Part shown: piece after piece, positions 7,489-32,932 of the stretch
Layout: every line of letters begins with the position of its first letter
Numbering within the stretch: position 1 is the stretch's first letter
Source: Hydrogenophilus sp.
GTDB lineage: Bacteria; Pseudomonadota; Gammaproteobacteria; Burkholderiales; Thiobacillaceae
Direction: 5' to 3'
Length of the DNA stretch: 64,000 bases
NCBI GenBank assembly: GCA_020725265.1
Contig: DYFK01000008.1
Coordinates: 87,846 to 151,845, forward strand
Position numbers and translations under genes: made by a program
Notes under the pieces: model-generated
What the model saw: only the letters and a program-made list of their open reading frames with translations
What the model was told of the DNA's origin: nothing
Databases searched by the model: none

Positions 7489-8507
7489 CGCGGAATCTCC
7501 AGCGTGGCGGTGACGCCGTGTCCGGGGTTGGCGGACAGGGTGAGGCGGGCCTCTTCGCCGTACAGAATCCGGAGGCGGGCGCGTACATTGTCCAGGCCGG
7601 CGCCGCCGCCGCTGTCCCGCAGGCCGGCGCCGTCGTCCGTGACCCGGATGGTCAGGCGGCCGTCTTCGCGGCGCGCCCGGATGAGCAGGGCGCCACCGCC
7701 CGGCTTGGGTTCGATGCCGTGACGCACCGCGTTTTCCACCAGCGGTTGCAGCAGCATGGGCGGCCAGGGCAGGTCCCGCAGATCGTCCGTCACGTCGATG
7801 CGCCAGCGCAGCCGGTCGCCGAAACGCACGGCCAGGATGTCCAGATAGCGGGTCAGCAGGTCCAGTTCGTCGTCCAGGGTGCCCCGATCGCTCCGGGCGC
7901 GGGCCAGGGCCACCCGCAGCCAGTCGTTCAGGCGTTCGAGCAGGCGGCGGGCGAGGGCCGGGTCGGCGTCGATCAGTCCGGCCACGTTGGCCAGGGTGTT
8001 GAACAGGAAATGCGGTTCGATCTGGGCCTGGAGCATGCGCAACCGCGCCTCCAGTTCCCTTCGTTCCATTTCGCTTTGCCGGAGCTGGCGTTGCTTGACC
8101 TCGGCATCCAGCCGCTGCACGCGCTCGTTGAGGTAGAAGGCGATGCCGCCGAGGCCGCCGAAGAACAGGCCGATCAGCACGGCGGTCCAGGCCCTGGGAT
8201 CGCTCCAGCCGCCTTCGCCGGTGACCCAGGCGCCCAGGCTGACGCCGAACAGGACGCTGGCGGGGAACGTGAAGGCCAGCAGGGGCCAGCGGCGCCAGTC
8301 GCGCACCCGCAGCATCACCGCCGCGTTGGCGGCGCAGATGGACAGGCCGATGCTTTGGGAATAGCTCCAGTTGACCCAGAAACCGTAACCGAATCCGACC
8401 TGGGTCAGCAGACCCGCGATCGCGGTGTTGAAGACCGCCGTCGCCAGCAGGGAGATCAGCCAGTAGCGCGGGGGGGCGGTCATCGGGAGCTGGGTCATGA
8501 CGCTCAT
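7485..8507 (-). CDS. LytS/AlgZ-like sensor histidine kinase
   Basis: QIEPHFLFNTLANV, LQPLVENAVRHGIEP, ATP-binding domain; 4-nt overlap with response regulator. Confidence 0.93.
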   Translation of the reverse strand: MSVMTQLPMTAPPRYWLISLLATAVFNTAIAGLLTQVGFGYGFWVNWSYSQSIGLSICAANAAVMLRVRDWRRWPLLAFTFPASVLFGVSLGAWVTGEGGWSDPRAWTAVLIGLFFGGLGGIAFYLNERVQRLDAEVKQRQLRQSEMERRELEARLRMLQAQIEPHFLFNTLANVAGLIDADPALARRLLERLNDWLRVALARARSDRGTLDDELDLLTRYLDILAVRFGDRLRWRIDVTDDLRDLPWPPMLLQPLVENAVRHGIEPKPGGGALLIRARREDGRLTIRVTDDGAGLRDSGGGAGLDNVRARLRILYGEEARLTLSANPGHGVTATLEIPR

Positions 8508-9730
8508 GGTAGTGCGAGCTTCACGCCCAGGGTAAGGCTGGATGCCACGATGGCGGCGAATTCGCCGCGTGCTCCGTCGTGGTCGCCGCCATCGGCCAGC
8601 CGGGCCAGGATGAAGACCGAGGCGCGGTCGTCGAGACTGCGTTCCGCGTAGCCCGCCAGTTCGTGGCTGCCGTCGGTGAGGTTGCGGGTGAACATGAGGC
8701 GCCAGTAGCCGTCCATGTCCATGAGATTGCTCTGCCAGACCAGGTGGAGGTAATCCCGGCCCAGCAGGGGCGGAGCGTGGCCCAGGGCCAGGCCGGCCAG
8801 GGCCGGCGCGGCGGCGGCGCGGCTGAAATAGGCGGCCTCCTCTCCCGCCCGGTAGCCGTGGCCGTCGTGCAGGTATTCGAGATTCAGGGTGCGGCCGTTC
8901 TCGAAGGTGTAGGTGGCGCCCGCCAGAAAGGTGCCGTGGCGGGGCGAGCGGGGCGCCAGCCGAAAAGGCTGGCCGGCATCCGCCGGGGAGACCAGGGCGT
9001 CGGCCCGGGTGGAACTGGCGAACTCGCCGTAGAGGAGCAGGGCGTCGCTGTAGGTATGGCGGGCATGCAGCCCGGCGAACAGCCCCTGGCCCGGCGTCTT
9101 CGCCAGGGCCAGGCCGGCGGCCCAGTCGCCGCCACGCTGTTCCCCATGCAACAGCCAGCTTCCGCGCAGCCCGTGGGCGTCGTGGCCGTCACCGGCCAGA
9201 TAGGCCAGGGCCAGGCCGCGCTCCGTATCCGGCGTCCAGGCGAGCTTCAGGGCGTCCACGCCGGACAACTCCGCCAGGGGGTTGCCCCGGCCATTGTCGA
9301 AATAGAACGGGCTGGACGGGGAACGGAACTGGGCTGGCCCCCAGTTCAGCACCTCCCGCCCAGCGGCCAGGTTCCAGGCCTCGTCCAGACGCCAGCGCAC
9401 CTGGCCCTGGCCGAGCCAGGCCTCGCCGGCGGCCCGGTCGCCGGACGAGTCGGCTCGGACGCCGAGGATGGGGCGCAGGGTCAGGCGCACACGGCCGCTT
9501 TCCGCCTTCAGGTCGAGACGGACCTCGGCCACGCCATCCCGTTCGGACAGATCGGCGAGGCGGTTGTCTGGATTCAGCACGCTGGTACGGTTCAGGTCCA
9601 GGGTGGTGCCGTAGCCGTACAGGGTGGCGTTCCAGCCAACTTGCCAGTCGCTGGTCTGGGCCCGGGACGTCGGATTGACGAACAGACCGGCCATCAGGAC
9701 GGCCGTCCAGACCGAGATGGGCATATTCAC
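8504..9730 (-). CDS. Outer-membrane beta-barrel-like protein
   Basis: Signal peptide, alternating aromatic/charged strands, no TM helices apparent. Confidence 0.6.
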   Translation of the reverse strand: MNMPISVWTAVLMAGLFVNPTSRAQTSDWQVGWNATLYGYGTTLDLNRTSVLNPDNRLADLSERDGVAEVRLDLKAESGRVRLTLRPILGVRADSSGDRAAGEAWLGQGQVRWRLDEAWNLAAGREVLNWGPAQFRSPSSPFYFDNGRGNPLAELSGVDALKLAWTPDTERGLALAYLAGDGHDAHGLRGSWLLHGEQRGGDWAAGLALAKTPGQGLFAGLHARHTYSDALLLYGEFASSTRADALVSPADAGQPFRLAPRSPRHGTFLAGATYTFENGRTLNLEYLHDGHGYRAGEEAAYFSRAAAAPALAGLALGHAPPLLGRDYLHLVWQSNLMDMDGYWRLMFTRNLTDGSHELAGYAERSLDDRASVFILARLADGGDHDGARGEFAAIVASSLTLGVKLALP

Positions 9731-10590
9731 TACATCTGCCCCAAATCGAACTCGGCGGCCGGGATGTCCCGCACCGTCACCGCGCTGTACTCCATGACGG
9801 TTTCGGCGTCGGTGAGGGCGTCGCGGATAACCATGCGGCTGACGAAGGGGAGGGATTTTCCCCGGTAGGCGATGCGGTTGCCGTAGGTGAAGCTGGCGGT
9901 CTTGAGCAGTTTGCCGGACACGGAGCGGAACTCCGCCTTCAGCCCGACCTGGCGCTTTTTCGATACCCAGTAGCGCACCTGGTCGTAGGTGGTGCGCTTG
10001 TGCTTCGAACGCAGCTCCAGCACATGGCAGGCCTCACCCTCCAGGACCGCCTCGCCGGCCAGCGCGGCGTCGTAGTCCTTGGCGTAGTTCGTGGCGGCGA
10101 TGTCGCCGTTGGCGGCCTGGCCGCTCATGCGCTGGCGGGGCGAGATGGGGATGGGCTTGGCCAGGCCGGGCCGGGTGAGCCACATGTTGCGGCCCACCTG
10201 GAGCAGTTTCGAGCCCTTGAAGCGGGCGGGCTCCAGGGTTTCCGCCACGCTGGCGTCGGCCACGGCGCGCACTTCCAGGCGTTGTTCGTCCGGGGCCTTG
10301 TCGCCGTCCCGGGAGACCAGGTCGATGCGCCAGGCGATGCCCGGCAGGCCGCCGCCCCGGGCCGTGTCGGCATCCTTCAGCAGGGTCTGGGGGTCGGGGT
10401 CGGCCAGGACGGGGGGGCTGAGCAGGGTGGCCAGGATCAGAAGCAGGGTGGGGACTAGGCCAAAGGCACCCTCTCCCCCGGCCCCTCCCCCGCAAGCGGG
10501 GGAGGGGTGCGCGGCAGCGCGGGAGAGGGTCTGGTTTTGCAAAGCAGATAGCCAAGAGCGCATCGTCATTTCTCCTCTACCAGTCCTCAC
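9730..10590 (-). CDS. Outer membrane lipoprotein-sorting (LolA/LolB-like) protein
   Basis: IDLVSRDGDK..., GEAVLEGEACHVLELRSKHKRTTYDQVRYWVSKK. Confidence 0.75.
   Translation of the reverse strand: MRTGRGEMTMRSWLSALQNQTLSRAAAHPSPACGGGAGGEGAFGLVPTLLLILATLLSPPVLADPDPQTLLKDADTARGGGLPGIAWRIDLVSRDGDKAPDEQRLEVRAVADASVAETLEPARFKGSKLLQVGRNMWLTRPGLAKPIPISPRQRMSGQAANGDIAATNYAKDYDAALAGEAVLEGEACHVLELRSKHKRTTYDQVRYWVSKKRQVGLKAEFRSVSGKLLKTASFTYGNRIAYRGKSLPFVSRMVIRDALTDAETVMEYSAVTVRDIPAAEFDLGQM
10469..10529. repeat. REP-like palindrome inside the N-terminal coding region of the LolA-like gene
   Basis: CCCTCTCCC...CCCCTCCCCCGCAAGCGGGGGAGGGG...GGGAGAGGG. Confidence 0.75.
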
Positions 10591-11846
10591 ATATGCCCCA
10601 GGGCATCGATGATGGGTTGCCGGGCGGCTCGGCGCGCGGGCAGCAGGGCGGCCAGGGTGCCCACGGCCAACATCATGGCCAGGGTCAGCAGCATGCGTGG
10701 CGGGTCCAGGTCCACCAGCAGGGGCACGAGGCGCACCGAGTTGGGCGGGATGTAGGCGATGTCGGCGGCGTTGATGCCCCAGCGCGCCGCCAGGGTGATC
10801 AGTACGCCGACACCGCAGCCGATCAGGGCCAGGAACAGCGATTCGGTGGCGAACAGACGCACCACGCTCGGCCGCTTCAGGCCGATGGCGCGCAGGGTGC
10901 CGATCTCCCGGGTGCGTTCCACCACGGCCATGCCCATGGAGTTGGCCACGCTCATCACCACCACCGTGAGCACGATGGCGAAGATGAAACCGAAGATCAT
11001 GTCGAACATGCCGCGCACCTGGCGGTAGAAGGCGGACAGGTCCACCCAGGTCTTGATCTCCACGTCGAAGCCGGCGGCTTGCAGCGTTTCCCGCAGGCGT
11101 TCCGCCATCGGGCCGGTCTGGTCGATGTCGTCCAGCAACACGGTCAGGCGGTCGGCCCGGCCCTCCGCGTCCAGCAGGTTCCGGGCCAGGGCCAGGGGCA
11201 TGAAGATGAACTTGTCGTTGGTGCCGGCGTTACCGGTGTTGAAGCCGCCGCCCACGCGCACATCCAGGGCGTTGGCCTGGCCGGTGAGGGTGTTCACCAG
11301 CAGCGCCGCGTCGCCGCCGGTTTCCAGGTCGAGCAGTTCCAGCAGGCCGTCGCTCACGTTCACCACCTGCACCCGTTCCGGGTCCAGTTTCCTGGCGATG
11401 AGCGTGTCGAAGCCGTGTTCGATTTCGTACTCGGTGAGACCGCCTTCCTGAAGCGCGGCCATGGCCTCCGGGGTGATGCCCTCGGCCAGGAAAATGGTGC
11501 TGGCGCGGCCGTTGCTGGCCAGGCCGGACAGAGCCAGGCGGGGCGTCGCCAGTTTCACGTGCGCCTCCGCCTCGATCAGGGCGGTCATGCGGGCGACCTC
11601 GTCGCCGGTGAGCAGGTAGCGTTCCGGGTCCAGCTTGCCGGCCGTGTCCATGCCGCGCTTCTGGATGGTGAGGTGGCCCAGCAGTTCGCCGTAGATGGCC
11701 TGGCGGGAAAGGCCGTCGTAGACGTTGTGGGTGTAGCCGGCGAACAGGCTGATGGCGGCGAAGCCGAAGGCCATGGCCAGCAGGGTCACCAGGGAGCGGT
11801 TGCGGTTGCGGGCCAGGCCGCGCAGGGCGAGCTTGCGCGCGTTCAT
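10587..11846 (-). CDS. ABC transporter permease (FtsX/MacB-like)
   Basis: ALRGLARNRNRSLVTLLAMAFGF, ERTREIGTLRAIGLKR. Confidence 0.92.
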   Translation of the reverse strand: MNARKLALRGLARNRNRSLVTLLAMAFGFAAISLFAGYTHNVYDGLSRQAIYGELLGHLTIQKRGMDTAGKLDPERYLLTGDEVARMTALIEAEAHVKLATPRLALSGLASNGRASTIFLAEGITPEAMAALQEGGLTEYEIEHGFDTLIARKLDPERVQVVNVSDGLLELLDLETGGDAALLVNTLTGQANALDVRVGGGFNTGNAGTNDKFIFMPLALARNLLDAEGRADRLTVLLDDIDQTGPMAERLRETLQAAGFDVEIKTWVDLSAFYRQVRGMFDMIFGFIFAIVLTVVVMSVANSMGMAVVERTREIGTLRAIGLKRPSVVRLFATESLFLALIGCGVGVLITLAARWGINAADIAYIPPNSVRLVPLLVDLDPPRMLLTLAMMLAVGTLAALLPARRAARQPIIDALGHM

Positions 11847-12583
11847 GCCATCGCCTCGTCGCTGACGACGAGACCGTCCCGGAGCAGGATCCTGCGGTCC
11901 ACGTGTTCGAGCAGGCGGGGGTCATGGGTGGTGAACACGAAGGTCACTCCCTTGGCGCGGTTCATGTCCCGCATCAGGTCGACGATCATGCGGCTGTTCT
12001 CCGAATCCAGATTGGCGGTCGGCTCGTCGGCGATCACCAGGCGCGGCTCGATGACCAGGGCGCGGGCGATGGCCACGCGCTGGCGCTGGCCGCCGGACAG
12101 CTTGTCCGGCCGCGCGGCGACGAAACGCTCCAGACCCACGTCGGCCAGGGCCGCCAGGGCGCGTTCCCGCGCGTGCCGTTCCGTCACGCCGCGAATCTGC
12201 AACGGCAGCATCACGTTCTCCAGCGCCGACAGCACCGGCACCAGGTTGAAGCTCTGGAACACGAAGCCGATCCGGTGGCCCCGAAAATCGGTGAGCGCGC
12301 CGTCGTCCAGAGCGGTCGTATCCAGCCCTTCGAAATGGAGGGTGCCGGCGGTGGGGCCGTCGATCAGGCCGATCAGGTTCATCAGGGTGGATTTGCCGCT
12401 ACCGGACGGTCCCCACACGGCGAGGAACTCGCCGGCGTGGATGTCCAGCGAAATGCCGTGCAAGGCGTCGATGGCGGTTTCCCCCAGCATGAAGCGGCGG
12501 CGGATGTCGCGCAGGCGGATCAGGGCGTCGATGCTGGTCACCGACGAGATGCCGCTGGCCGGTGTGCTGGCGTGTCGGTTCAT
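11843..12583 (-). CDS. ABC transporter ATP-binding protein (LolD/MacB-like)
   Basis: GPSGSGKSTLMNLIGLID, LSGGQRQRVAIARALV, LVIADEPTANLD. Confidence 0.95.
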   Translation of the reverse strand: MNRHASTPASGISSVTSIDALIRLRDIRRRFMLGETAIDALHGISLDIHAGEFLAVWGPSGSGKSTLMNLIGLIDGPTAGTLHFEGLDTTALDDGALTDFRGHRIGFVFQSFNLVPVLSALENVMLPLQIRGVTERHARERALAALADVGLERFVAARPDKLSGGQRQRVAIARALVIEPRLVIADEPTANLDSENSRMIVDLMRDMNRAKGVTFVFTTHDPRLLEHVDRRILLRDGLVVSDEAMA

Positions 12584-19624: not shown

Positions 19625-22315
19625 TCAAGTGCAACCAAACCGCGCCGCCACGCCCTCAAGCGTCATGTTCTCAGCAATCTCATCATGGGGAATCAGCACA
19701 TAGCGCCACGGCTTGCCGCTGTAACTCGCCGCATGATCTGAAGCATTCGCGCACCACTGCACAGCCACCTCTTTCTTGGCCAGAACAATGGGGTCTTCCA
19801 GCTCCGTGCGCTTCTTGGGTTCTAGCATATAAATTGCGTCGGTCGTCTCGGCAACGAAATCCGGCTGGTATTCCCGATGATCCGCCCCATCCCGGTAATA
19901 AATCTGGAACTGTCCCTTCGCAGGCTTGAACCACTTGATCGCGTCCCGCTCCAGAATCACCGCCAGCTTGCGTTCTGAGTCCGAATCGAACTTCTGCACG
20001 GGGTACAGGCATTTCTCGAAACCGCCGTAGAGGTACTTCGCCATGTTGCTTTTGTCCGCCGGCTCGACCCGGTAATTGGCGGGCGGTTCCTGCATCGAAT
20101 AGGTGTAGGCGCTCTGCTTCAGCTCGGAGAAGCCCTTGTTGATCTTCACCTCGTAGCCGGCCACATCCTCCCAGTAATGGACCTGCATCTGGGCGTGGAT
20201 GAAACGGGCGATGTCTTGTTGGTAACAACGCAACACCTTGCGCGCGTCGTCTTCGGAAAGATAGGTCCGGAAGTGGGCCACGGTCTGCGTTGCCAGGTCA
20301 TAGAGCAAGTTGGCGTGGTGGTCGTAGGAAATGTCGTCAAAGTCCACCAGACCACTCACCACGTAGTCTTCCAGACGGGCTTCCTCGATGCCGCCACGGC
20401 CCAGGGAAACCACTTCAAGCTGATTCGTGCGCAGGTGTTGAATCCAAAGTTCGTCGGATACCGCCGGATACTTCAGCGTGGCCAGGTCAAGTTCGAATGG
20501 CTTGAAGCCTGATTTCACCTCACCTTTGGGCACCACCAGAATGCGGGGAATATCGATGGTTTGCTGGGTGACCAATTCCACCGTCTTCGCCACTACGGCG
20601 GCGATGTCGGGTTTCTCGGCTACCCCTTCCAGTTCCAACTGCGTCGGCTGGTGCTGTTCTTCTACAGCCTTGATGATGGCGGCCTGGATTTCGGGCTTCT
20701 TCAGGTATTCGACGGTAGGCAGCGTCTGCGGCTGGTTTTCCAGCTTGCGGATGACCTCGTAGGTGATCTGCGCCACTTTTTGATCTTCGGGCTTGGTGAA
20801 AACAGGCACGGTGTCGCCACCCGCCACCACGGTGCTACTGGTTACCTGGGCGGGTTTCAGGCCCAGCTTGGAGGCCAATTGGGATTGCGACACCACCGTG
20901 GCCGTCTTCTGGCCCAGGTCTTCGGAATCCAGTACCACCGCCTGCAAGTGAATCGCCGAATCCGGCTTGTTGGCCTCGGTGATGATCTCCTGAAACTTGT
21001 CGTGGGCAACGATGTTCAACCGGTCCACCGCCATGACGCCGGTGCGCTTGCCATAGGGCAGACGCAGACCGCGCCCGATGGATTGCTCGATGAGGATGCG
21101 GGCATTGGCTGCGCGCAGCGGCACGATGGTGTAGAGATTGGTTACGTCCCAGCCCTCCTTGAGCATGTTGACGTGAATCACGATCTCCGTCGGCTCGTCG
21201 GTGTGCTCCACCTTGAGCAGACGAGAAATCATCTCCTCCTCTTCCGCGCCGGTCTTGCTGGAATCCACCTGGATGACCTTGTCCCGATAGCGCCCCTCAA
21301 AGAAGTTATCGGACTTGATCAGCTCGGTCAGTTGCCCGGCGTGGGTGGTGTCGCGGGCAATCACCAGCAGGAACGGCTTGACGATGGGGTTCTCACTCTC
21401 GCGGGCGTAGGTTTCCAGTTCCACCTTCACGGACTCATGCAGACGCACCCCGTCTTCCAGTTTCAGCCGTTCAATCTCCTCCACCGACATGCCCGCCGGA
21501 TTGAAATTCTTCCGAGTGACCACCGCCGGCTCCTTGACGAAGCCATCGGCCATGGCCCGGCCCAGCGGGTAGTCAACAATCACGTTCTTGAAGGCCACCG
21601 CGCCCCGGCTGGTCTCGACGAACGGCGTGGCGGTCAGCTCCAGCCCGAGGATCGGTTTCAGCTCATTGATGGCGCGCATGCCCGCATTGGCGCGGTAGCG
21701 GTGCGACTCATCCATCAGCATCACCAGGTCCGGTAGCCCGGCCAGGTAATCGAAATAGCTCTCACCGATGTATTCCGACAGCCGCTTGATGCGCGGCGAC
21801 TTGCCGCCGCGCACTTCGGCCGCAATCTTTGAGATGTTGAAGATGTTGATCCGTACCCCACCGAACAGGGTGCCGCTCATGGGGTCGCGTTGGTCGTAGT
21901 TGTCGCCGGTAATGATGGAAGGTGCGTCGATGGCGAACTCGGCGATGCCCCGGAACACGTACTTGGGATGGTTGCGGTCGCTGAAATCGGCGATCAGCTT
22001 GTTGTAGATGGTCAGGTTGGGCGCCAGCACGAAGAAGTTGTTGATGCCGTGGGCCAGGTGCAGATAGGCGATGAAGGCCCCCATCAGGCGGGTCTTGCCC
22101 ACGCCCGTGGCCAGAGCGAAACACAGGGATGGAAACTCCCGCTCGAAGTCCGTCACTGACGGAAACTCGCTCCTGATGGTCTCCAACACCGCCGCCAGGT
22201 CCACGCCCTTGCCCGGCGGGGCAATCTCGGTGATGCGGTCCAGGATTTCCAGCGAGCGACGCTGGGGCGGACGCAGGCTCAGGCGGCCGGCGATGGCGTT
22301 GACGTGGCGGTTCAT
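19625..22315 (-). CDS. res: Type III restriction enzyme, Res subunit
   Basis: FALATGVGKTRLMGAFIAYL, LMDESHRYRA, IGRGLRLPYGKRTG, C-terminal YQPDFVAETTDAIYMLEPKK (PD..ExK). Confidence 0.9.
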   Translation of the reverse strand: MNRHVNAIAGRLSLRPPQRRSLEILDRITEIAPPGKGVDLAAVLETIRSEFPSVTDFEREFPSLCFALATGVGKTRLMGAFIAYLHLAHGINNFFVLAPNLTIYNKLIADFSDRNHPKYVFRGIAEFAIDAPSIITGDNYDQRDPMSGTLFGGVRINIFNISKIAAEVRGGKSPRIKRLSEYIGESYFDYLAGLPDLVMLMDESHRYRANAGMRAINELKPILGLELTATPFVETSRGAVAFKNVIVDYPLGRAMADGFVKEPAVVTRKNFNPAGMSVEEIERLKLEDGVRLHESVKVELETYARESENPIVKPFLLVIARDTTHAGQLTELIKSDNFFEGRYRDKVIQVDSSKTGAEEEEMISRLLKVEHTDEPTEIVIHVNMLKEGWDVTNLYTIVPLRAANARILIEQSIGRGLRLPYGKRTGVMAVDRLNIVAHDKFQEIITEANKPDSAIHLQAVVLDSEDLGQKTATVVSQSQLASKLGLKPAQVTSSTVVAGGDTVPVFTKPEDQKVAQITYEVIRKLENQPQTLPTVEYLKKPEIQAAIIKAVEEQHQPTQLELEGVAEKPDIAAVVAKTVELVTQQTIDIPRILVVPKGEVKSGFKPFELDLATLKYPAVSDELWIQHLRTNQLEVVSLGRGGIEEARLEDYVVSGLVDFDDISYDHHANLLYDLATQTVAHFRTYLSEDDARKVLRCYQQDIARFIHAQMQVHYWEDVAGYEVKINKGFSELKQSAYTYSMQEPPANYRVEPADKSNMAKYLYGGFEKCLYPVQKFDSDSERKLAVILERDAIKWFKPAKGQFQIYYRDGADHREYQPDFVAETTDAIYMLEPKKRTELEDPIVLAKKEVAVQWCANASDHAASYSGKPWRYVLIPHDEIAENMTLEGVAARFGCT

Positions 22316-23358
22316 TGGCCGTCCCCCTTGTTCTTCTCGTTCTGTTCCAACTGCCGCACCAGTCGATCGAAATCGCTCTCGTACAGCCTGTCCTGCACGA
22401 TGCGGTATTTCTCGAATTCGCTTTCGGCATGGGCCTTGGCGATTTCGGCCGTCACGCGGCCCGCGTCCTGCAACACCGCCCGGTCGGTGGCCTCGATGAA
22501 GCGGTTCAGGCGCGTCTCCCAGTCCTGCATGGTCATGGGCATCTTGCGTAACGCCATATCCTCGGCCACGTCCAGATAGGCATTGACCAGCCGGGAAAGC
22601 TGGGCCAGTTCAGATTCCGTCAGGTAATTCTTGGCCACCGACACATCGAACTTCTGGATTTTTCCGCGCGGCGCATCCTTCCAGGTCGTCAGGCCCATGT
22701 TTTCCTGCGTCGCATCGGCGCGGGTGAAGACGACTTCCGCCGCCGTCTGCCCATGAATAGCCCAATGCAGTTTGTTCTGCACCGTGGCGAAGAACCGCTT
22801 GGTGGCTTGGGCCGTGACGTCGTAGTCGATGGCGGTGGCGTAGATATCGGTGATCTTCTGGTAGAACTTGCGTTCAGACAGGCGTATCTCGCGGACGCGC
22901 TGGAGCTGTTCTTCAAAGTACTGATCCGCCAGGACGGAGCCGCCGCTTTTCAGGCGCTCGTCGTCCATCGTGTAACCCTTGATGGCGAATTCCTCGACGA
23001 TGCCGGTGGCCCATTTGCGGAACTGCACCGCACGTTCCGAATTGACCTTGTAGCCCACGGCGATGATGGCGGCCAGGTTGTAATGGCGGGTGTCGTAGGT
23101 CTTACCGTCGGCGGCAGTTATCCGAAAATTTCGGATAACTGCTTCCTCTTGTAACTCGCTGTCGGAAAAGACTTTCTTCAAGTGGTAGTTGATGGTTCGC
23201 ACATCCACGTCGTAGAGCTGCGCCATCATCTTCTGGCTGATCCAGACGTTTTCATCGGCATACACCGCCTCCACGCCCCCCTGCCCGGTGGCCGCTACAA
23301 AGGTCAGGTACTCCGCCGCCGAAGAGCGAACCAGCGAGACCTCCTTCTTCTTGTTCAT
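22312..23358 (-). CDS. RhuM-family protein
   Basis: VYADENVWISQKMMAQLYDVDVRTINYHLKKVF...YNLAAIIAVGYKVNSERAVQFRKWA. Confidence 0.9.
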   Translation of the reverse strand: MNKKKEVSLVRSSAAEYLTFVAATGQGGVEAVYADENVWISQKMMAQLYDVDVRTINYHLKKVFSDSELQEEAVIRNFRITAADGKTYDTRHYNLAAIIAVGYKVNSERAVQFRKWATGIVEEFAIKGYTMDDERLKSGGSVLADQYFEEQLQRVREIRLSERKFYQKITDIYATAIDYDVTAQATKRFFATVQNKLHWAIHGQTAAEVVFTRADATQENMGLTTWKDAPRGKIQKFDVSVAKNYLTESELAQLSRLVNAYLDVAEDMALRKMPMTMQDWETRLNRFIEATDRAVLQDAGRVTAEIAKAHAESEFEKYRIVQDRLYESDFDRLVRQLEQNEKNKGDGQ

Positions 23359-25124
23359 GGTTCTCCCCCATCGAACAGCGATTGCTGCCCCGGTGCCCTT
23401 CTCCCCTCCCCCGCAAGCGGGGGAGGGGCCGGGGGAGAGGGGGGTTCCGGCGCCGCCGGCAGGTTCTCCACCCGCAACGAATAATCGTCATGCCCCCACT
23501 CGCAGCGCGACAGCACCTGCTTCGGGATTTTCTTCACCGTGAGATTGGCGAACTCCTCCCGGCTGCGGAAGGCCGGACACAGCACCAGCAAAGTCCGCTC
23601 CGGCCCCACCTCGTCGGCAAGCTGCTGCAACTGCTCATGGCTCAGGGTGGCGGTGGTGACGTAGATGAAATCCCGCTCTGTGGAATGGCCGTGCTGCCAG
23701 TACACCGCGTCGGAGGGCGCATAGGTGAAGCCCTCCAGCTTGCACAACGCCTCCGCCAGCATGGCGGCGTTGTAGTCTCGGTGGATGACCCAGTTGCCCC
23801 ACTTGTCCTTTTCCAGCAGCGACGGCGCCAGCCGGTAATAGCGGAACCCGCCGCCGCCCTTCCAATTCACCGCCTTGCTGATGCCGCCCTGGTCTTCGCC
23901 GTCGATGACCTTCTTCAGGCGCGGAATGATGTGGGTGTGACAGTGCCCCCCCAGTTCCACCATGATCCAGCGCCGCCCCATCTTGTGGGCTACGGCACCG
24001 GTGGTGCCCGAACCTGCAAACGAATCAAGAACAATATCCCCTGGTTTCGTTGCTAGGTCGAAGCACCGCTTGATCAATGCCTCAGGTTTCTTTCCTTTTG
24101 GAAATTCAACACCACCTTCGTTGTGAAGGTTATTGGACAGAATGTCATCCCAAAGACTGGTGAGCGGCTCGCCTGCCACATATTGGCCGTCAATCAGCTT
24201 TAGCTTGTCAGAATAGAAGAGGATGCGTTCGCCATTCGTGAAGTACATGTTTGAATGAGCATCACGTTCGAGCAGGAGAACTTCGTTAGGCGTGGCTTTT
24301 GACTGGTCTATCATGCCGCGTGCTTCACTGCTTACTGCGTTGTAATCAGGACGAGCAAGACGAACCACTTGCTGCGCGTGAGTCATCACGAAATCAGAGA
24401 GCAGATCTTCGTACTCGTCGCCGAGGGCCTTCTTGATGCCTTTTTCTGAAATGCCAAGGCTCTGTGCGAAAGCCCTTGTTAGCGTCGTGAAGCGCCACAT
24501 CGCATAGGGATCAGCGAAATTTTCAATGAACTGGCCATATCGCTTATCTCGCTCGGCACGCGCTGTGAAAACACGATTGGGAGCCCACGCCGACCTATTC
24601 TTTGCGTAAATCAGGATGAAATTGGTGGTGCTGACAACACCAGGATTGATCGACTTATGCCCGGTCGCTGATCCCTGTTTAAACGAGACGACTGATACCC
24701 GATTGGCCCGTCCGAAAACTTCGTCAAGCAGGACGATCAGGTAGCCAAGTTCGTTATCGTCAATATGGACGAACAGCGTGCCGTCATCAGACATCAAGCG
24801 GCGTAGGGACTCAGCGCGATCTCGAATCAAGCCGAGCCAGATCGAGTGCTCGTAACCATCGTCATAATGCTCAAAGGCCTGCTGGGTATTGAATGGGGGG
24901 TCGATATACACGCACTTCACCCGCCCCGCGAACTCCGCCTCCAGCGCCTTCAAGGCCAGCAGGTTGTCGCCGAAGATCAGCCGGTTGTCGAAGAGGTCGT
25001 TGTCGCTCACCCGATGCCCGGCGTGATAACTCCGCGCCGGCTCTTCCAGCAGGATGCGCGGCTCCAGCCGAGGCCGGCTCTCCTTGCCGATCCAGGTGAG
25101 TTCGAGTTTTTGCTTGTTTTTCAT
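23355..25124 (-). CDS. mod: Type III site-specific DNA methyltransferase, Mod subunit
   Basis: YIDPPFNTQQAFEHYDDGYEHSIWL then DIVLDSFAGSGTTGAVAHKMGRRWIMVE. Confidence 0.92.
   Translation of the reverse strand: MKNKQKLELTWIGKESRPRLEPRILLEEPARSYHAGHRVSDNDLFDNRLIFGDNLLALKALEAEFAGRVKCVYIDPPFNTQQAFEHYDDGYEHSIWLGLIRDRAESLRRLMSDDGTLFVHIDDNELGYLIVLLDEVFGRANRVSVVSFKQGSATGHKSINPGVVSTTNFILIYAKNRSAWAPNRVFTARAERDKRYGQFIENFADPYAMWRFTTLTRAFAQSLGISEKGIKKALGDEYEDLLSDFVMTHAQQVVRLARPDYNAVSSEARGMIDQSKATPNEVLLLERDAHSNMYFTNGERILFYSDKLKLIDGQYVAGEPLTSLWDDILSNNLHNEGGVEFPKGKKPEALIKRCFDLATKPGDIVLDSFAGSGTTGAVAHKMGRRWIMVELGGHCHTHIIPRLKKVIDGEDQGGISKAVNWKGGGGFRYYRLAPSLLEKDKWGNWVIHRDYNAAMLAEALCKLEGFTYAPSDAVYWQHGHSTERDFIYVTTATLSHEQLQQLADEVGPERTLLVLCPAFRSREEFANLTVKKIPKQVLSRCEWGHDDYSLRVENLPAAPEPPSPPAPPPLAGEGRRAPGQQSLFDGGEP
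23397..23444. repeat. REP-like palindrome at the 3' end of mod
   Basis: CCCCTCCCCCGCAAGCGGGGGAGGGG core (23403-23428), same core as 10469-10529. Confidence 0.75.
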
Positions 25125-26404
25125 GGGAAAAATAGTGACCGCTGGGGCGGCGCAATAATTTGATCGCTCGATTTTATTTGCTGGGCAGAACGGCGTTTCA
25201 CCCCCCCCGGACTGATGATCTCAACCACTCTCCCCTCAAGCTGTTGCCCCAAGGAGTCCCGATAAATAATCGCCGAAGCTGGCGACTCATTGCAGGTCGT
25301 GGCAAACAACTCACCAAAGCTGAGGCCTTCAGCATTGGCATAAACAAGGCGGGGTATCTGTTCATTCAAAGCGGCAATGCTGGCTTTGCGGGCGACATCG
25401 TCGAACTCGAACCCCAAACAGGTTTGGCCCTTGCGTTCATCGTCATGATCCGGGTCGTAGCCGACCATCTGGAACATCTCCAACCCTGGACCACCATAGT
25501 GGATAAAGTAATTGTTGTTATTCCAGTGCACCTCGGTCATGACGTCGCGTGCCCGGTGATGCTGCGAAAGGTGGATAAGCCAGTAATCGCCATGCCCTTT
25601 CTTGTTCCGGATGAAAAAGGGCGTGTAGTACTTGGCACCACATCGATTTACCAATGAGCGGTAAAGTCCGCTTTGTATGAACAGACGCCAGTCTTTTTCG
25701 GAGTTTTTGATCTCATCGATAGAGCGGCCTTGCAGGATGTCCGGTATGCCGATTTCATCAAGCAACGACTGCGTGAGTTCGCCTACGCCGGCGAAATTCA
25801 GGAATGAGTCGACGCCGAAAGTCAGGATGACTTCGGCGCTTGGTAATTGGGCAAAGATCTTTCGGACCAGTGGAGCCGGTATGTCTTTGTAACCATATTG
25901 ATCCAGTGCGAAGATCGACCGGCCATTTTTTGGGCTTTTCCGTTTAATGAAATCGATGATGTCGTCAGCTTCGTCCTGAAATTTGGCATGGCGGAGCTGG
26001 ATGTTGTTTCCGATATGACCGCCATGTCCTTCTTCCCGCAACACCTTGTCGAGATGCGCGTGAGCATGGCGATCGGCTTCGATGAAAAAATAGTCAACCT
26101 TCAGGTCAACGGGCTTCCTGCGCCCCTGGTTGATCAGAAAATCCGCCTCGCGGGTAGCATCGAGAAAGATGAAGGGGGAACCCTTGACGAGTTCACCGGT
26201 ATCGCTGTGGACGTATTGACCACCACCGGCGAAACCATCCACAAGTGTGAGTCGAAGAACATCCTGATTGGGCGAGCTGACCAAGGTCTGGAAATACGCG
26301 GCCAGATACGACTGCAGTATCCGGTGTTTGGCAATACTATGCGGTTGTATGAGATCGGGCCCATTTTTCCAGTTGTATGGCTTGCGAGACATAACTTCCT
26401 TCAA
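25121..26404 (-). CDS. tcmP: Three-Cys-motif partner protein TcmP
   Basis: Next to a DUF5131 gene; KHRILQSYLAAYFQTL, LVDGFAGGGQY, IFALDQYGYKDIP. Confidence 0.85.
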   Translation of the reverse strand: MKEVMSRKPYNWKNGPDLIQPHSIAKHRILQSYLAAYFQTLVSSPNQDVLRLTLVDGFAGGGQYVHSDTGELVKGSPFIFLDATREADFLINQGRRKPVDLKVDYFFIEADRHAHAHLDKVLREEGHGGHIGNNIQLRHAKFQDEADDIIDFIKRKSPKNGRSIFALDQYGYKDIPAPLVRKIFAQLPSAEVILTFGVDSFLNFAGVGELTQSLLDEIGIPDILQGRSIDEIKNSEKDWRLFIQSGLYRSLVNRCGAKYYTPFFIRNKKGHGDYWLIHLSQHHRARDVMTEVHWNNNNYFIHYGGPGLEMFQMVGYDPDHDDERKGQTCLGFEFDDVARKASIAALNEQIPRLVYANAEGLSFGELFATTCNESPASAIIYRDSLGQQLEGRVVEIISPGGVKRRSAQQIKSSDQIIAPPQRSLFFP

Positions 26405-27147
26405 GGCAAGGCGGATACTGCGGGCATGTCATCCCAAGTACGGCCTGCGAGTAGCCGTCCATTGGCTTTCTTGGAGCGCCGCTTGCCATCGGCCCCCCAC
26501 CCTCCCCATTGTTTGAAAAAGAACTGCACTTTCTGTGCTTCGCATTGCTGGCGGATATTTTCCACCCATTCGACCTTCATCGGCCTGGCCTTCGGCCCTG
26601 ATTCCCCTCCCACGATTACCCAGTGGATGCCGTCAAGATTTAGCTTGCCCAGATCTTCTAGTAGCGGCTCAATCGATAGGAAGCGTATGCGCGCTTCCAC
26701 TTTCCTTAGGCAATCGATTCGCGCTAGGCCACTCAATTTGTCTTCAACTGTCACGCCAATCCATGCATTGGATGGCACGGTACGAGGCCTGAAATACGAG
26801 GCCAGCCGCTCCGCACGTTTGGTGAGTATCTGGAAAGTATGTTGAGGGCAACGCTCAATGACATCGAAGACCTGTTCGATGTAGGTGTCGCTAACCTTCT
26901 TATGGAAAAGGTCCGACATTGAGTTAACAAAATAGACGGCGGGTTTTTTTCGATTGATCGGTTCCGATAATCTGTTCGGCAAGAGTGTCAGCTGGAAACC
27001 GTTCTCGTAGCCGGGCGTTCCCATGGCCTTGAGCCGCTTGGCCATGGCCTCCGCATAGCAGTGCTTACAGCCAGCGGAAATCTTGCTGCAACCCACGGTC
27101 GGGTTCCAGGTCGCTTCAGTCCACTCGATACGGCTGGTTTGTGACAT
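26401..27147 (-). CDS. DUF5131 (Gp37/Gp68-like) three-Cys-motif protein
   Basis: IEWTEATWNPTVGCSKISAGCKHCYAEAMAKR (C-x6-C-x2-C), WIGVTVED, WVIVGGESG. Confidence 0.93.
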   Translation of the reverse strand: MSQTSRIEWTEATWNPTVGCSKISAGCKHCYAEAMAKRLKAMGTPGYENGFQLTLLPNRLSEPINRKKPAVYFVNSMSDLFHKKVSDTYIEQVFDVIERCPQHTFQILTKRAERLASYFRPRTVPSNAWIGVTVEDKLSGLARIDCLRKVEARIRFLSIEPLLEDLGKLNLDGIHWVIVGGESGPKARPMKVEWVENIRQQCEAQKVQFFFKQWGGWGADGKRRSKKANGRLLAGRTWDDMPAVSALP

Positions 27148-27168
27148 GGCGTATGCGCTAATTAGCGG

Positions 27169-27666
27169 TCAGAACGTCCAGCCTTGCTGGTGCATGAATT
27201 CTTCCAGGTCGATGCAGGGAATCTTGAAGTGGGCACAGACGTTGGGAATTTTGGCCGCATTAGGCTTGAGGGTGAGCGGCTTGCCGCCGCGCTGCCAGCC
27301 TTCCTCGGTGACCACCGTTGCCCCGTTGATCCGGGCGCAGGCGATGACGAAGGGGTCGGCGACGGGCGTGCCCTTGAGCCGCTGCTGGGCGCCGATCAAG
27401 CCCTGGAAGTGCTTGATCTTGAATATTTTGGCCACGAACAGCAGTTCGGGCCCGGTCGGCGTGGTGAATAAAGCCTTGTTGCCCTTCACCCATTTCATGA
27501 CTTCTTCGCTGACCGCCTGCCGTTCCAGTTCGTTGTACACCTCGCGCGTGGAGAGGAGTTCTTGCCAGGCAACGAGGTCGTCCAGGCCATCCCAGATGCT
27601 CTTGAAGACGCGTGGGTAGAAATGTTGGAGGGAGCGAATGGAACTAGTGTCGAAGACATAGCTCAT
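27169..27666 (-). CDS. DUF4411 PIN-fold protein
   Basis: MSYVFDTSSIRSL...; 4-nt overlap with the upstream ImmA gene. Confidence 0.88.
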   Translation of the reverse strand: MSYVFDTSSIRSLQHFYPRVFKSIWDGLDDLVAWQELLSTREVYNELERQAVSEEVMKWVKGNKALFTTPTGPELLFVAKIFKIKHFQGLIGAQQRLKGTPVADPFVIACARINGATVVTEEGWQRGGKPLTLKPNAAKIPNVCAHFKIPCIDLEEFMHQQGWTF

Positions 27667-28835
27667 GCCTCGGCCCCTTGCAGAATCCGCTCTTCGAAAC
27701 CGGCGTAGTTCTTAGGCTTGATGCCCAAAAGATCGGCGGCCTGCTCAAGGCTAATCTGGTGTCGGTAATGGCGGCTGACCACTTCCTTGGCGAAACGGTC
27801 GCTGATGTAAGCGCCCTGGTTGAGATACCAGTTGCCGCCACCGGCTTCTTTTTTCTGGGCGGCCCAATACTTGGCCTTGCGTTCATAAAACGCTTGGCCA
27901 ACCCTGCCCTGATCGAGAAAGCGACGCAGGATGGCTTCCCTGCTGACTCCGTAGCGATTGGCGAGGGCGGCAAACTGGGCCTCCGTGGCCTGCTCCAAGT
28001 TCGCGGGAAACTGTTCTGCCTGGTCTGCGAAGTCCTGTGCCGGAATGAGGACTTCCGCGGCGATGGCATTACAGAACTGCTCGACCTTCCGTTCATTGCG
28101 CGGCAATTGCTCAATGTAGGCGGTGTCGAACTTGCTCAAGCCGTTCATGCTCAGGAGCAGATGGGCGAGTTCGTGGAGCAGGCTGAATATCTGTCGGGTC
28201 TTGGTGGTGCTGTTGTTGAGATATACAACCGGCAAATGCTCGTCCATCAAGCAAAAGCCGGAGATGTCCTTCTGTTTGAACGCGGCCTTGAAAACGAAGA
28301 TGCCGCAAGCCTCGATGGCACTCCGCCATGCCTTGAGGGCTTGCTCGTCAGTTTTCCAGGCGGCCTGCTGTTCAAGCGTGATGCCCAATTGCTCGCGAAT
28401 GGCCTGGGCCTGGCCGGCAATGTCTTTTGACAGCGAAAGAGATACGGTTTTCCAGATATGCCGCTCGGCGGGGTTGTGTCCGTCGAACAGGTCACGCAAG
28501 GCAAGTTGGTAGGCGTGGGCGCGGCGGATGTGCAGATAGGTATCGCGTTGAAGCGTCTGCAAATCCGCCTCCGGTAACGTCCGGAACTCGCGTTGCGGAA
28601 GAGTTTCCTCCGGAGGGGTCGGCAAGAAAAACACCGCCAATGGCCGTTTATATATTTCGTATGCCAGTTTTTCCAATTGCGGATAAGTGGGTGCGGCGGT
28701 CCCATCTTCCCAGGCCTCGATCTCCTCGGGTTGCCGCTTTAACTTGCTGGCAACATCAATGATATCTAGCCCGACTGACTGCCTGGCCCACCGGAAAATT
28801 GCGGGCTGGATGCCCATGACAGGTTCGTGTTTCAT
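27663..28835 (-). CDS. XRE HTH - ImmA/IrrE metalloprotease protein
   Basis: N-terminal HTH; SLLHELAHLLLSMNG (HExxH). Confidence 0.93.
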   Translation of the reverse strand: MKHEPVMGIQPAIFRWARQSVGLDIIDVASKLKRQPEEIEAWEDGTAAPTYPQLEKLAYEIYKRPLAVFFLPTPPEETLPQREFRTLPEADLQTLQRDTYLHIRRAHAYQLALRDLFDGHNPAERHIWKTVSLSLSKDIAGQAQAIREQLGITLEQQAAWKTDEQALKAWRSAIEACGIFVFKAAFKQKDISGFCLMDEHLPVVYLNNSTTKTRQIFSLLHELAHLLLSMNGLSKFDTAYIEQLPRNERKVEQFCNAIAAEVLIPAQDFADQAEQFPANLEQATEAQFAALANRYGVSREAILRRFLDQGRVGQAFYERKAKYWAAQKKEAGGGNWYLNQGAYISDRFAKEVVSRHYRHQISLEQAADLLGIKPKNYAGFEERILQGAEA

Positions 28836-28868
28836 CGTTCGGTTCCTCCTCCCCAGGGCGTCTCATCG

Positions 28869-29855
28869 TTATGTAATAGAAGAAAAAGCCGATTCCCTTT
28901 CCCTGGCTTTGGTCAAATCCTTGAGTGCCAGGAATTCCTGGTTGCGCAAAATCATGCGCTTGATGGCGCGTCGAGCGATACGCTCGATGTCCGCCGGGCT
29001 GAGCCCTTTGAATATTTTCAGCAAGGATTGGGAGTCGGTCTCGAACTGGCGCCGCACCCCACGCAGCTTCAATTGCAGTATCTGGGGCAGCAAATCAGTT
29101 CCAGGCACGGGAAATTCGAGGGTGTCGTCGAAACGTCGCCATACGGCACTGTCCAGTATTTGCTCGTGATTGGTGGCAGCGATGAGCAGGCTCTTGCCGC
29201 GATAGCCATCCATCATTTGCAGGACGGCGTTCACCACTCGCCGGAGTTCGCCATGCTCGCTGCTATCCGCGCGCTCCTTGCCCAATGCATCGAATTCGTC
29301 GAATAGGGCCACTACCTCGTTCTGGTCGATGAAGTCGAATACCTTGCGCAGATTGGCGGCGGTCTCGCCCAAATAGGAGGAAACCAGGGCGTCGAGACGG
29401 ACAATTGCGAGAGGCAGATCCAATTCCGAGGCGATCACTTCCGCCGCCATGGTCTTGCCGCACCCAGGGGGGCCGAAAAACAGCACTTTGGATGCCGGCT
29501 GCAAGCCATAGGAACGGAGGACGTCCGCACGCCGGTGCTCTTCAAGCAAATCTTCGATGGCGGACATTCCCGCCTTGGACAAAACAAGCTCTTCAAGGGA
29601 GCGTTGGGATTGCCGGATATCCAATAACGGGAGGCCGCGTTCCTTGTCAGTCGGGACGCTGGACGGAATGCGCAGGAAGGAGGCGGGGGCAGGTTTAGAC
29701 TCGCCATACAGAATCCGCTCCAAATCGTTGGCCAGCAGATGGTGCTGCTTTTGCCGTTCTTCCTCGATGATGGATTTCGATGCCGCTTTGAAGGCGGCGA
29801 GATCACCCCCGGCCCCGGCCTTTATCAATTGCCGCAATACCTTACCGCTCGCCAT
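28869..29855 (-). CDS. AAA ATPase
   Basis: FFGPPGCGKTMAAEVIASEL, VVALFDEFDALGKER, ATNHEQILDSAVWRRFD. Confidence 0.92.
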   Translation of the reverse strand: MASGKVLRQLIKAGAGGDLAAFKAASKSIIEEERQKQHHLLANDLERILYGESKPAPASFLRIPSSVPTDKERGLPLLDIRQSQRSLEELVLSKAGMSAIEDLLEEHRRADVLRSYGLQPASKVLFFGPPGCGKTMAAEVIASELDLPLAIVRLDALVSSYLGETAANLRKVFDFIDQNEVVALFDEFDALGKERADSSEHGELRRVVNAVLQMMDGYRGKSLLIAATNHEQILDSAVWRRFDDTLEFPVPGTDLLPQILQLKLRGVRRQFETDSQSLLKIFKGLSPADIERIARRAIKRMILRNQEFLALKDLTKARERESAFSSIT

Positions 29856-29950
29856 GATGTTCTCCTCGCATTGTCGGCACCCTTATCATCCCCACGAATT
29901 TGCCCGGACGCCGCAGTTTATATGATCCAAATGGTAACCAGCCCTCAGGC

Positions 29951-32932
29951 TCAAGACGCGAGCCTCCAGCGCAGGCAAAACAAATTTTCCGTGACGGTTT
30001 GCTGGCCTAACTTGCGTTCAATCTGCTCGATAAGTTCATCACGCTGCCTGTCCACCTGATCCTGAGCATCGAACAATGCCCGGCGTTTCTGGTTGCGTTG
30101 AGCCTCCAAGACCTTGATCTGCTTCTGACCGGCGAGCTTTTCTTCCAGTGTCAGCGCGGTGGTGGCCGCGCGGCGGGCTTCCTTGATCTGGCGGTCGATC
30201 TCCTTGATTTCCCGCTCCAGACCCACCTTGAGGTCATCCGCCCAGCCGTCGAGCTTGTCGGCTTCGGCCTCGAAAATACGGGCGTTGCGTTCGGAGATGG
30301 TGCGCTGGATGGCGGCCTGGCGGTTCTGGGCATGCCGCCCGATGGATTCGTTGATTTCCGCCTCTACCGCGCATGGTTGGGGGGTGGAGACGCAAGGCAA
30401 TGTCAACAACCGCTGCGCGACCTCCTCCTCCAGCATCTGGCCTTCGTCGGTGATGGCGGAAAAGATCAAGTGGTCTTCCGCCTGGTCAAGTGATTCCACA
30501 CTGAACTGGGTCAGGGCAAGCCAGCCGGATTTGTCGATGAATGGCTCAAGCGTCGTGACCTTGCCATCATGCCGGCCGTAATCGAAGTGGATCTCGGCGG
30601 AGGGCAGGTCGCGGCCCTTCGCCTGGGCGACGATGGCCTCGGCCAGGGGGTGGTTGAGGCGGTATAGATGGGCTTCGCCGGTGCGGCGCGGCAGTTCGTA
30701 CAGGCCCAGGGGGATGGCGTCGGCCTGCTCGGGGAAGGGGTTGGCGGCAAGCCGGAAGGATGCATCGTCCACGAACTCGGCCAGGCCATCCAGTTCGTGC
30801 CGGGTGAGCTGCATGAGCAGGCGTTCATAGCGGTTCAGGTACGCCTTGGAGGTTTCATCGCGCACCTTGAGCTTTTCGCGCACTTCGTCGTCGAAGTTTT
30901 CCAGCAGCTTTTGCCGGGTGCGGGTCATGGACTCGTTGATTTCCAGGCTCAGTTCGAGCTGGAGCTGGTTGAAGGCGGTGGCTATCTCGTCGGGCTTGCG
31001 GCAGGTCTGGTAGATGGCGGCGATGCGTTTCTCGAAATCGACGCCGGATTCGATGGCACCCAGCACTTCGTCGCTGGCTCCGAAGACGCCCTCGAAGAGC
31101 TGGAACTTGTCGCGCAGCAGTTCAAAGACGCGCTGGTCGGCAGCGTTCTTGCGGTTGAGAAAGTTGACCACCACCACGTCATGCTTTTGGCCATAGCGAT
31201 GGCAGCGGCCGATGCGCTGCTCGATACGCTGGGGGTTCCAGGGCAGATCGTAGTTGACCACCAGCGAGCAGAACTGGAGGTTGATGCCTTCGGCACCCGC
31301 CTCGGTGGCAATCATGATGCGGCCCTGCTCGCGGAAGTAGTCCACCAGGGCCGAGCGCATGTCGGCGGTACGCGATCCGGTGACCCGGTCGCTGCCCTGG
31401 TGGCGTTCCATCCACTGGCTGTAGATGAGCTTGGAGCCTTCGTCGGTGTTGGAGCCGTTGAACAGGACGACGCCCTCGGCGAAGGGGCTGTCCGCCAGTA
31501 CGCGCAGCAGGTAGTTCTGGGTGCGGCGGGACTCGGTGAAGATGATGGCCTTCTGCGCCGCGCCGATTTCCTCCGCCTTGGCGAAGGCAATGCGTAACGC
31601 CTTCAACAGGGCCTTGCCCTTGGCGTTGGATTCGATGGAGGCGGCCAGTTGCGCGAATGCGTCGAGGTCGGCGATTTCACGCTCGATGGCCTGGCGGTCG
31701 GCTTCGCTCAGGTATTCGCCGGAATCGTCTTCCGTCCATTCCTCAGCGGTCTCATCCAGGGCTTCGTAGTCCTGGTCCAGCTCATCTTCAAGAGATTCGG
31801 CGGGTTCCTGCTTGCGCAGCTTGGCCTTGAGCCGGTTGGAAATGGAAGTGAGCGCGCCGGCGATGGCAAAGGTGGACGAGGCCAGCAGCTTGCGCAGCAC
31901 CAATGTCATCAGGGAGCGCTGGCTGGCTGGCAGGGCTTGGAGGTTTTCCCGTTGCAGGTACTCGGAAACAAGATGGTAGAGCCGGTCTTCACTTTCTTCC
32001 GGGGTGAACTCCTCCACCAGCGGCAGGCGCTTGGTATAGGGAATGTAGGCGGTGACCTGGCGGCGAAGCGTGCGGTGGCAGACGGGCTTGAGGCGGGCCT
32101 TGAGCGTTTGGAATACCCGTTCCTGCTCCAGGTTGGCGAACTGCTCGCGGAAACTCTTCAGGTCGCCAAAGGTGTGTTCGTCGATGAAGCTCACCAGGCC
32201 GAACAGCTCCAGCAGTGAGTTCTGTAACGGCGTGGCGGTGAGCAACAGCTTGTGTTTGCCGGCGAGCGCCAGCTTGAGCGTGTTGGCAATGACGTTGGAC
32301 GGCTTGTAGACGTTGCGCAGCCGGTGCGCTTCGTCGATGACCACCAGGTCCCAAGGTACGGCATGAACATCGCCGGCCTTGCTCTTGGCGAACTGGTAAG
32401 AGCAAATAACGATCTCGAGCGCCTCGAAGGGGCGGAAATGGCCCTGCCGGATGGCAGCGTTGTAGGACTTGGCTTCGAGGATGCGGCAGGGCAGGAAGAA
32501 TTTCTCGGCCAGTTCCTGATACCACTGCTTGCGCAGGTTGGAGGGCGTAATGATGAGGATGCGTCGTTTGCGCTCCGCCCACTTCTGAGAGAGAACCAGG
32601 CCTGCTTCGATGGTCTTGCCAAGGCCAACTTCGTCGGCCAGCAGGGCACCCTTGGATAGCGGCGACTGAAAGGCGAACAGCGCGGCATCGACCTGATGCG
32701 GGTTGAGGTCCACCTGGGCATCGACCAAAGCGCCAGCAAACTTCTCGACGCTGTCGGGCGGGCAGCGGCGGGTTAGCTCATAGGCGAGATATTTGGTGTG
32801 GTAGCTGGAAATCACTGCCTGATTGTTATTGGGGTTTTTGCGATTGTCCTGCAACGTTCTGGAAAGACAAAGATGGGCTTGATGGATAGCCCTTGCACGC
32901 GAAGGCTGGGCCATGATCGTTACTAGCCGCAC
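29951..32932 (-). CDS. SNF2/DEAD-box family helicase
   Basis: GALLADEVGLGKTIEAGLVL, VIDEAHRLRN, EAGAEGINLQFC, IGRCHRYGQKHDVVVVNFL. Confidence 0.93.
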   Translation of the reverse strand: MRLVTIMAQPSRARAIHQAHLCLSRTLQDNRKNPNNNQAVISSYHTKYLAYELTRRCPPDSVEKFAGALVDAQVDLNPHQVDAALFAFQSPLSKGALLADEVGLGKTIEAGLVLSQKWAERKRRILIITPSNLRKQWYQELAEKFFLPCRILEAKSYNAAIRQGHFRPFEALEIVICSYQFAKSKAGDVHAVPWDLVVIDEAHRLRNVYKPSNVIANTLKLALAGKHKLLLTATPLQNSLLELFGLVSFIDEHTFGDLKSFREQFANLEQERVFQTLKARLKPVCHRTLRRQVTAYIPYTKRLPLVEEFTPEESEDRLYHLVSEYLQRENLQALPASQRSLMTLVLRKLLASSTFAIAGALTSISNRLKAKLRKQEPAESLEDELDQDYEALDETAEEWTEDDSGEYLSEADRQAIEREIADLDAFAQLAASIESNAKGKALLKALRIAFAKAEEIGAAQKAIIFTESRRTQNYLLRVLADSPFAEGVVLFNGSNTDEGSKLIYSQWMERHQGSDRVTGSRTADMRSALVDYFREQGRIMIATEAGAEGINLQFCSLVVNYDLPWNPQRIEQRIGRCHRYGQKHDVVVVNFLNRKNAADQRVFELLRDKFQLFEGVFGASDEVLGAIESGVDFEKRIAAIYQTCRKPDEIATAFNQLQLELSLEINESMTRTRQKLLENFDDEVREKLKVRDETSKAYLNRYERLLMQLTRHELDGLAEFVDDASFRLAANPFPEQADAIPLGLYELPRRTGEAHLYRLNHPLAEAIVAQAKGRDLPSAEIHFDYGRHDGKVTTLEPFIDKSGWLALTQFSVESLDQAEDHLIFSAITDEGQMLEEEVAQRLLTLPCVSTPQPCAVEAEINESIGRHAQNRQAAIQRTISERNARIFEAEADKLDGWADDLKVGLEREIKEIDRQIKEARRAATTALTLEEKLAGQKQIKVLEAQRNQKRRALFDAQDQVDRQRDELIEQIERKLGQQTVTENLFCLRWRLAS

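Follow-up and report, generated by a model that had tools for sequence, protein, structure and literature searches.

A probable SNF2-led type III restriction-modification core with exchangeable defence cargo in Hydrogenophilus sp.

Nine open reading frames, all on the minus strand, span positions 19625-32932 of the 64,000-nt stretch of Hydrogenophilus sp. DNA that was analysed, here called the window (Table 1). Counted from the Res end to the SNF2 end, the intergenic distances are -4, -4, -4, -4, 21, -4, 33, and 95 nt. The co-oriented arrangement with five 4-nt overlaps and gaps of 21, 33, and 95 nt, as described in the original prediction, was thereby reproduced, and the gene families named there were upheld when assigned with three libraries, Pfam, PADLOC, and NCBIfam. 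All nine genes are present, but the predicted extent up to 32932 is probably too long. Homology of the SNF2 protein to its relatives begins only at residue 39-40 of the longer reading frame, and therefore the gene most likely starts at the downstream GTG and specifies about 954 amino acids. The GC content of the block, 0.52-0.62 compared with 0.64-0.71 in the flanks, is consistent with horizontal acquisition. Scans for promoters and terminators at the locus gave results at chance level. Left and right flanks were also searched in relatives for an empty site marking the island boundary, and the left flank was not conserved in those examined.

Table 1. Genes of the nine-gene block, with proposed roles and supporting matches
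Gene product and proposed role	Position	Strand	Supporting evidence
SNF2 (RapA/DrmD_b-like) helicase, core gene 1	29951..32815	-	PADLOC DrmD 690 bits; best PDB match RapA; probable start GTG 32815, not GTG 32932
IetA-type AAA ATPase, slot-1 cargo, without IetS subtilase	28869..29855	-	PADLOC IetA 345 bits; NCBIfam IteA 262, cut-off 510
HTH + ImmA/IrrE (M78), likely antitoxin, slot-1 cargo	27663..28835	-	Peptidase_M78 83 bits; HELAH
DUF4411 PIN-like, likely toxin of the ImmA pair, slot-1 cargo	27169..27666	-	PF14367 105 bits; 4-nt overlap with ImmA
DUF5131 (Gp37/Gp68, three-Cys motif), slot-1 cargo	26401..27147	-	PF07505 364 bits; PADLOC PDC-M30B/M41B
TcmP three-Cys-motif partner with GMT-wHTH, slot-1 cargo	25121..26404	-	TIGR04474 237 bits
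Mod, type III adenine methyltransferase, core gene 2	23355..25124	-	PADLOC MTase_III 655 bits; PDB match EcoP15I Mod
RhuM family, slot-2 cargo	22312..23358	-	PF13310 358 bits; PADLOC PDC-S05 502 bits
Res, type III restriction helicase with C-terminal PD-ExK nuclease, core gene 3	19625..22315	-	PADLOC REase_III 709 bits; PDB match EcoP15I Res

Mod and Res display the features expected of a type III restriction-modification system. Mod is a beta-class N6-adenine methylase, in which DPPF at residue 75 (motif IV) precedes FAGSGTT at residue 369 (motif I) with a variable recognition region between them. Res combines an SF2 helicase (GVGKT at 71, DESH at 202) with a PD-(D/E)xK nuclease (PDF..EPK, 818-834). 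GLGKT and DEAH are present in SNF2, HELAH in ImmA, and GPPGCGKT in the AAA protein. The catalytic motifs of Mod, Res, SNF2, and ImmA, which had been described as intact, are indeed so and are also conserved in relatives: GVGKT was found in 29 of 29, DPP[FY] in 28 of 28, and Y.PDF...E.K in at least 90%. According to a variability profile, the target-recognition region of Mod (residues ~151-345) is hypervariable, with 9-32% identity among loci, while its flanks reach up to 94%. The C-terminal tail of Mod in the window contains in frame a GC-rich short palindromic repeat (23385-23455), of which about ten other copies in both orientations occur in the genome; a resembling insert is located near the N-terminus of Mod in another locus, L047.

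The SNF2 protein matches NCBIfam DISARM_DrmD_b with 695 bits over 634 positions, the curated cut-off being 950, and its PADLOC score is 167 bits for HmaA versus 690 bits for DrmD. Small genes of 65-85 codons for helix-turn-helix proteins are located 5' of SNF2 in five plasmid loci (L095, L096, L097, L099, and L217), and a WYL regulator gene in L212. No small helix-turn-helix gene was found upstream of SNF2 in the window.

SNF2 homologues were collected from the order (33 of 398 genomes positive), the class (24 of 332), plasmids, and IetA-bearing contigs, and their neighbourhoods were read. The resulting census comprises about 70 related loci, many of them from draft genomes and metagenome-assembled genomes. 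Besides the window, 60 loci contain a full-length SNF2 gene. It is followed by mod and then res in 47, and 11 of the other 13 run off the contig. Where enough downstream DNA is available, the order SNF2-Mod-Res is thus kept in 47 of 49 full-length loci. The two real exceptions are L124, which has only a mod stub, and L216, in which SNF2 and Res are fused. In the latter, on a Thioclava plasmid, one reading frame (8580-12281) consists of SNF2 and the C-terminal half of Res, and neither mod nor cargo is present. Six loci (L095, L099, L115, L118, L214, and L215) are bare SNF2-Mod-Res arrangements devoid of cargo. The three-gene core was detected in Deinococcota (Deinococcus), Planctomycetota, Bacteroidota (Hymenobacter), and Proteobacteria, and three type III Mod/Res lineages (PADLOC 03636/03648, 03634/03647, and 03646/03654) accompany one SNF2 family.

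SNF2 and Res distances, compared across 29 loci, are strongly correlated (Spearman 0.88, Mantel p 0.0005), and 14 of 26 tree splits are common to both. The agreement of the two trees indicates that the helicase has been inherited together with the nuclease. At least one clear exchange between SNF2 and Res is apparent: L047, L108, and L109 join L107 and L114 by SNF2, but the window by Res. The grouping obtained from either data set is rejected by the other (p-AU 4e-5 and 5e-39), with groups that were picked after the trees had been seen. Within Mod, the recognition region shows little correlation with SNF2 and Res (0.22-0.24), whereas the C-terminal part follows both (0.72-0.75). At the genome level, SNF2 is present in 15 of 20 Res-bearing genomes versus 33 of 398 overall (Fisher p 2e-14), and since the loci are phylogenetically non-independent, these p-values overstate the significance. 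Two loci show internal deletions of SNF2, covering residues 161-922 in L162 and 78-882 in L166, and their Res proteins are 84% and 93% identical to that of the window. It looks as if the helicase had been lost first, and with Res intact in both cases SNF2 may be dispensable.

The gap between SNF2 and mod (slot 1) contains in the window IetA, HTH-ImmA/DUF4411, and DUF5131/TcmP, and the gap between mod and res (slot 2) contains RhuM. Among the full-length loci, slot 1 is filled in 37, slot 2 in 26, and both in 17. Hardly any two loci have the same genes between SNF2 and Res. By Pfam, cargo elsewhere includes Schlafen-AlbA_2, YhcG nuclease, KilA-N, Bro-N, GmrSD, DUF2130, SIR2, PLD, OLD-TOPRIM, TIR/SEFIR, DarT, HerA, Fic, HipA, AbiEi, DUF3800, IetAS, AIPR, and SMC-like and AAA_21 ATPases with DUF4276. 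Several families are restricted to one slot. RhuM (7/7 other loci) and YhcG (6/6) occur only in slot 2, together 13 of 13 (Fisher p 1.5e-9, shared ancestry not corrected for), and Schlafen-AlbA (7/7), AIPR (5/5), KilA-N (4/4), and Bro-N (4/4) only in slot 1. When slot 2 is empty, an overlap of exactly 4 nt between mod and res is common, and where RhuM or YhcG occupies the slot, 4-nt overlaps with both neighbours are often retained.

Four loci contain an additional copy of the 5' end of mod upstream of the cargo, and this copy begins at the mod start. These direct repeats measure 319 bp (93% identity) in L047, 101 bp (96%) in L104, 130 bp (89%) in L162, and 140 bp (81%) in L103; shorter mod 5' stubs are present in L011 and L124. 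Copies of other core-gene ends are rarer and do not exceed 71 bp. The repeats around the cargo suggest that the 5' end of mod is a site of homologous recombination, and they could also serve to remove cargo; they are static sequences, several of which come from draft assemblies. A search for such repeat scars in the window locus revealed none.

The AAA gene had been predicted simply as an AAA ATPase, which is correct and can be sharpened: it is specifically IetA, 84-89% identical to IetA of similar loci, and its PADLOC match extends over 314 positions. In the known IetAS system this ATPase is accompanied by a subtilase, IetS, which adjoins IetA in 43 relatives and thus in nearly all for which downstream DNA is available; most of the remainder lie at the edge of a contig or represent distant AAA proteins. 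Beside the IetA gene of the window IetS is absent, and ImmA begins 33 nt after it. One locus, L011, combines IetA with a truncated IetS. A distant IetAS pair is located elsewhere in the host genome (L175, G000:C17:108000-126000, positions 7122-10600), with identities of 38% for the AAA protein and 26% for IetS; the nearest IetS of the genome, on another contig, was recorded as a 29% match. The dN of the orphan IetA to the outgroup, 0.243 versus 0.257-0.261 for IetA with IetS, gave no sign of relaxed constraint, although with dS saturated this is a weak test.

HTH-ImmA and DUF4411 are likely antitoxin and toxin, since both the gene arrangement and the families fit a type II system of the HTH-ImmA/PIN kind. 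The overlapping order of an HTH-M78 gene followed by a PIN-like gene is that of known Xre-ImmA/DUF4411 pairs, but here it is embedded in a restriction-modification operon. At the similarity level of the window, HTH-ImmA was found in only two of the 398 genomes, in each as part of an SNF2-Mod-Res locus, and more distant HTH-ImmA/PIN (DUF4411) pairs stand alone on plasmids. The pair also occupies slot 1 of L109, which has Mod, RhuM, and Res in common with the window. In L222 (5668-9500), another HTH-M78 (ImmA-like) gene is situated in slot 1 directly before a complete IetAS, so that ImmA-like and IetA genes are found together for a second time. All eight genomes of the order that contain TcmP have DUF5131 next to it, none of the other carriers having the two in an SNF2-Mod-Res operon, and the pairing recurs in the four plasmids examined. 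Their adjacency agrees with the PADLOC PDC-M30 pair, the M30A score being weak and partial (83 bits).

From these analyses it appears probable that the region is composed of a type III core, SNF2, Mod, and Res, with interchangeable defence cargo in two internal gaps, and is not a fixed nine-part machine. The original prediction had joined all nine genes in one composite system, with the helicase, AAA, and ImmA-PIN parts modifying or guarding a type III core. In a fully integrated system of this kind, AAA, ImmA-PIN, DUF5131/TcmP, and RhuM would regulate or guard the restriction-modification core and be needed for it. The single orientation with 4-nt overlaps at five junctions speaks for such integration, as do the recurrence of ImmA/DUF4411 in slot 1 of L109 next to window-type Mod, RhuM, and Res, and, in slot 1 of L222, the presence of a different HTH-M78 gene beside IetAS. 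However, the search for the complete set yielded none among the other 397 genomes of the order, 331 genomes of the class, and the plasmid loci examined. Six loci have just the three core genes, and each cargo module exists alone elsewhere or is replaced by unrelated defence genes, which makes a nine-component system very unlikely. The part of the claim linking SNF2 to type III Mod/Res stands, based on gene order, congruent trees, and co-occurrence in genomes. Smaller independent modules elsewhere, which were to count against the prediction, are indeed what was found for the six cargo genes; SNF2 does not behave in this way.

The opposite extreme, a plain type III Mod/Res pair around which unrelated defence genes including SNF2 have accumulated by chance, is unlikely as well. 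Every gene belongs to a family found in defence islands, SNF2 has decayed in some loci with intact Res, and the variability of the genes between SNF2 and Res would suit a random collection; yet neither the constancy of the SNF2-Mod-Res order and the congruence of the SNF2 and Res trees, nor the bare three-gene loci and the slot specificity, would be expected from it. A third possibility is suggested by the DrmD_b match: SNF2 could be a true DrmD and Mod could take the DrmMI role in a DISARM variant. DISARM of the class with DrmD likewise has a DrmD_b-related SNF2-like helicase beside an adenine methylase, but the score obtained here is below the cut-off, the operon lacks drmA, drmB, and drmC, and it specifies a complete type III Res nuclease, a component not required in DISARM. 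No match to PF09369 (DUF1998/MZB of DrmB) was obtained in the whole genome, control genomes being positive. Such a variant is therefore extremely improbable; the missing drmABC refute membership in DISARM, although the helicases could still share a biochemical role. BREX was ruled out, as the genome has no match to PglZ (PF08665). Judged by the features tested in its sequence, the locus belongs to type III restriction-modification and is neither DISARM nor BREX.

Compared with EcoP15I-like systems, the order of the Mod motifs, the variable central recognition region, the helicase motifs and C-terminal PD-ExK of Res, and the neighbouring position of the two genes are alike. The locus differs in that an SNF2 gene co-inherited with Res leads the operon, and in the cargo that separates SNF2 from mod and mod from res. 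Defence genes embedded in immune operons have been described as 'guilt by embedding' (Payne et al. 2024, preprint, as cited in PMC12255303 and PMC12988326). DarTG2 has been found inside a type I operon (PMC12255303), and RhuM in restriction-modification loci was noted earlier (PMC3710099). The present locus resembles such operons in having unrelated defence genes between restriction-modification genes; RhuM corresponds to PDC-S05, TcmP/DUF5131 match PDC-M30/M41, and YhcG of the relatives is PDC-S02. It differs in its host operon, which is of type III, led by SNF2, and provided with two slots whose cargo repertoires are distinct. The set of Payne et al. may already include SNF2 type III hosts. 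No description of an SNF2-led type III system was found in a search confined to open-access papers.

A mechanism can be proposed in which Mod would methylate one strand of an asymmetric site, marking self DNA, and Res together with Mod would cut invading DNA that has oppositely oriented, unmethylated sites. The RapA-like SNF2 translocase would work with Res and Mod on incoming DNA, most likely by moving along the duplex and displacing bound proteins. Backup layers expressed from the same operon would be provided by the slot-1 cargo (the IetA ATPase, the HTH-ImmA/PIN pair, and DUF5131/TcmP) and by RhuM in slot 2. While the core order, the co-inheritance of SNF2 and Res, the slot-specific cargo, the hypervariable specificity region of Mod, and the mod 5' duplications in some relatives can be read from the sequences, we infer that the helicase acts in restriction, that the cargo may protect independently, and that cargo could be exchanged by recombination in conserved core genes. 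Tentatively, and with considerable doubt, the locus might represent an undescribed type III subclass with an SNF2 translocase as obligate partner of Res. The operon would then be a cassette platform, in which conserved SNF2 and Res ends and a recombination site at the mod 5' end let cargo and DNA specificity swap around a persistent core, each slot following rules of its own.

What could be addressed only vaguely as a defence island becomes a defined three-gene chassis with two slots, which about 8% of the searched genomes of the order possess. If the chassis reading holds, SNF2 should participate in type III restriction. The contents of the slots are candidate defence genes, for which the identity of the slot is informative, and the duplicated mod ends make the acquisition of embedded defence genes by an operon directly testable.
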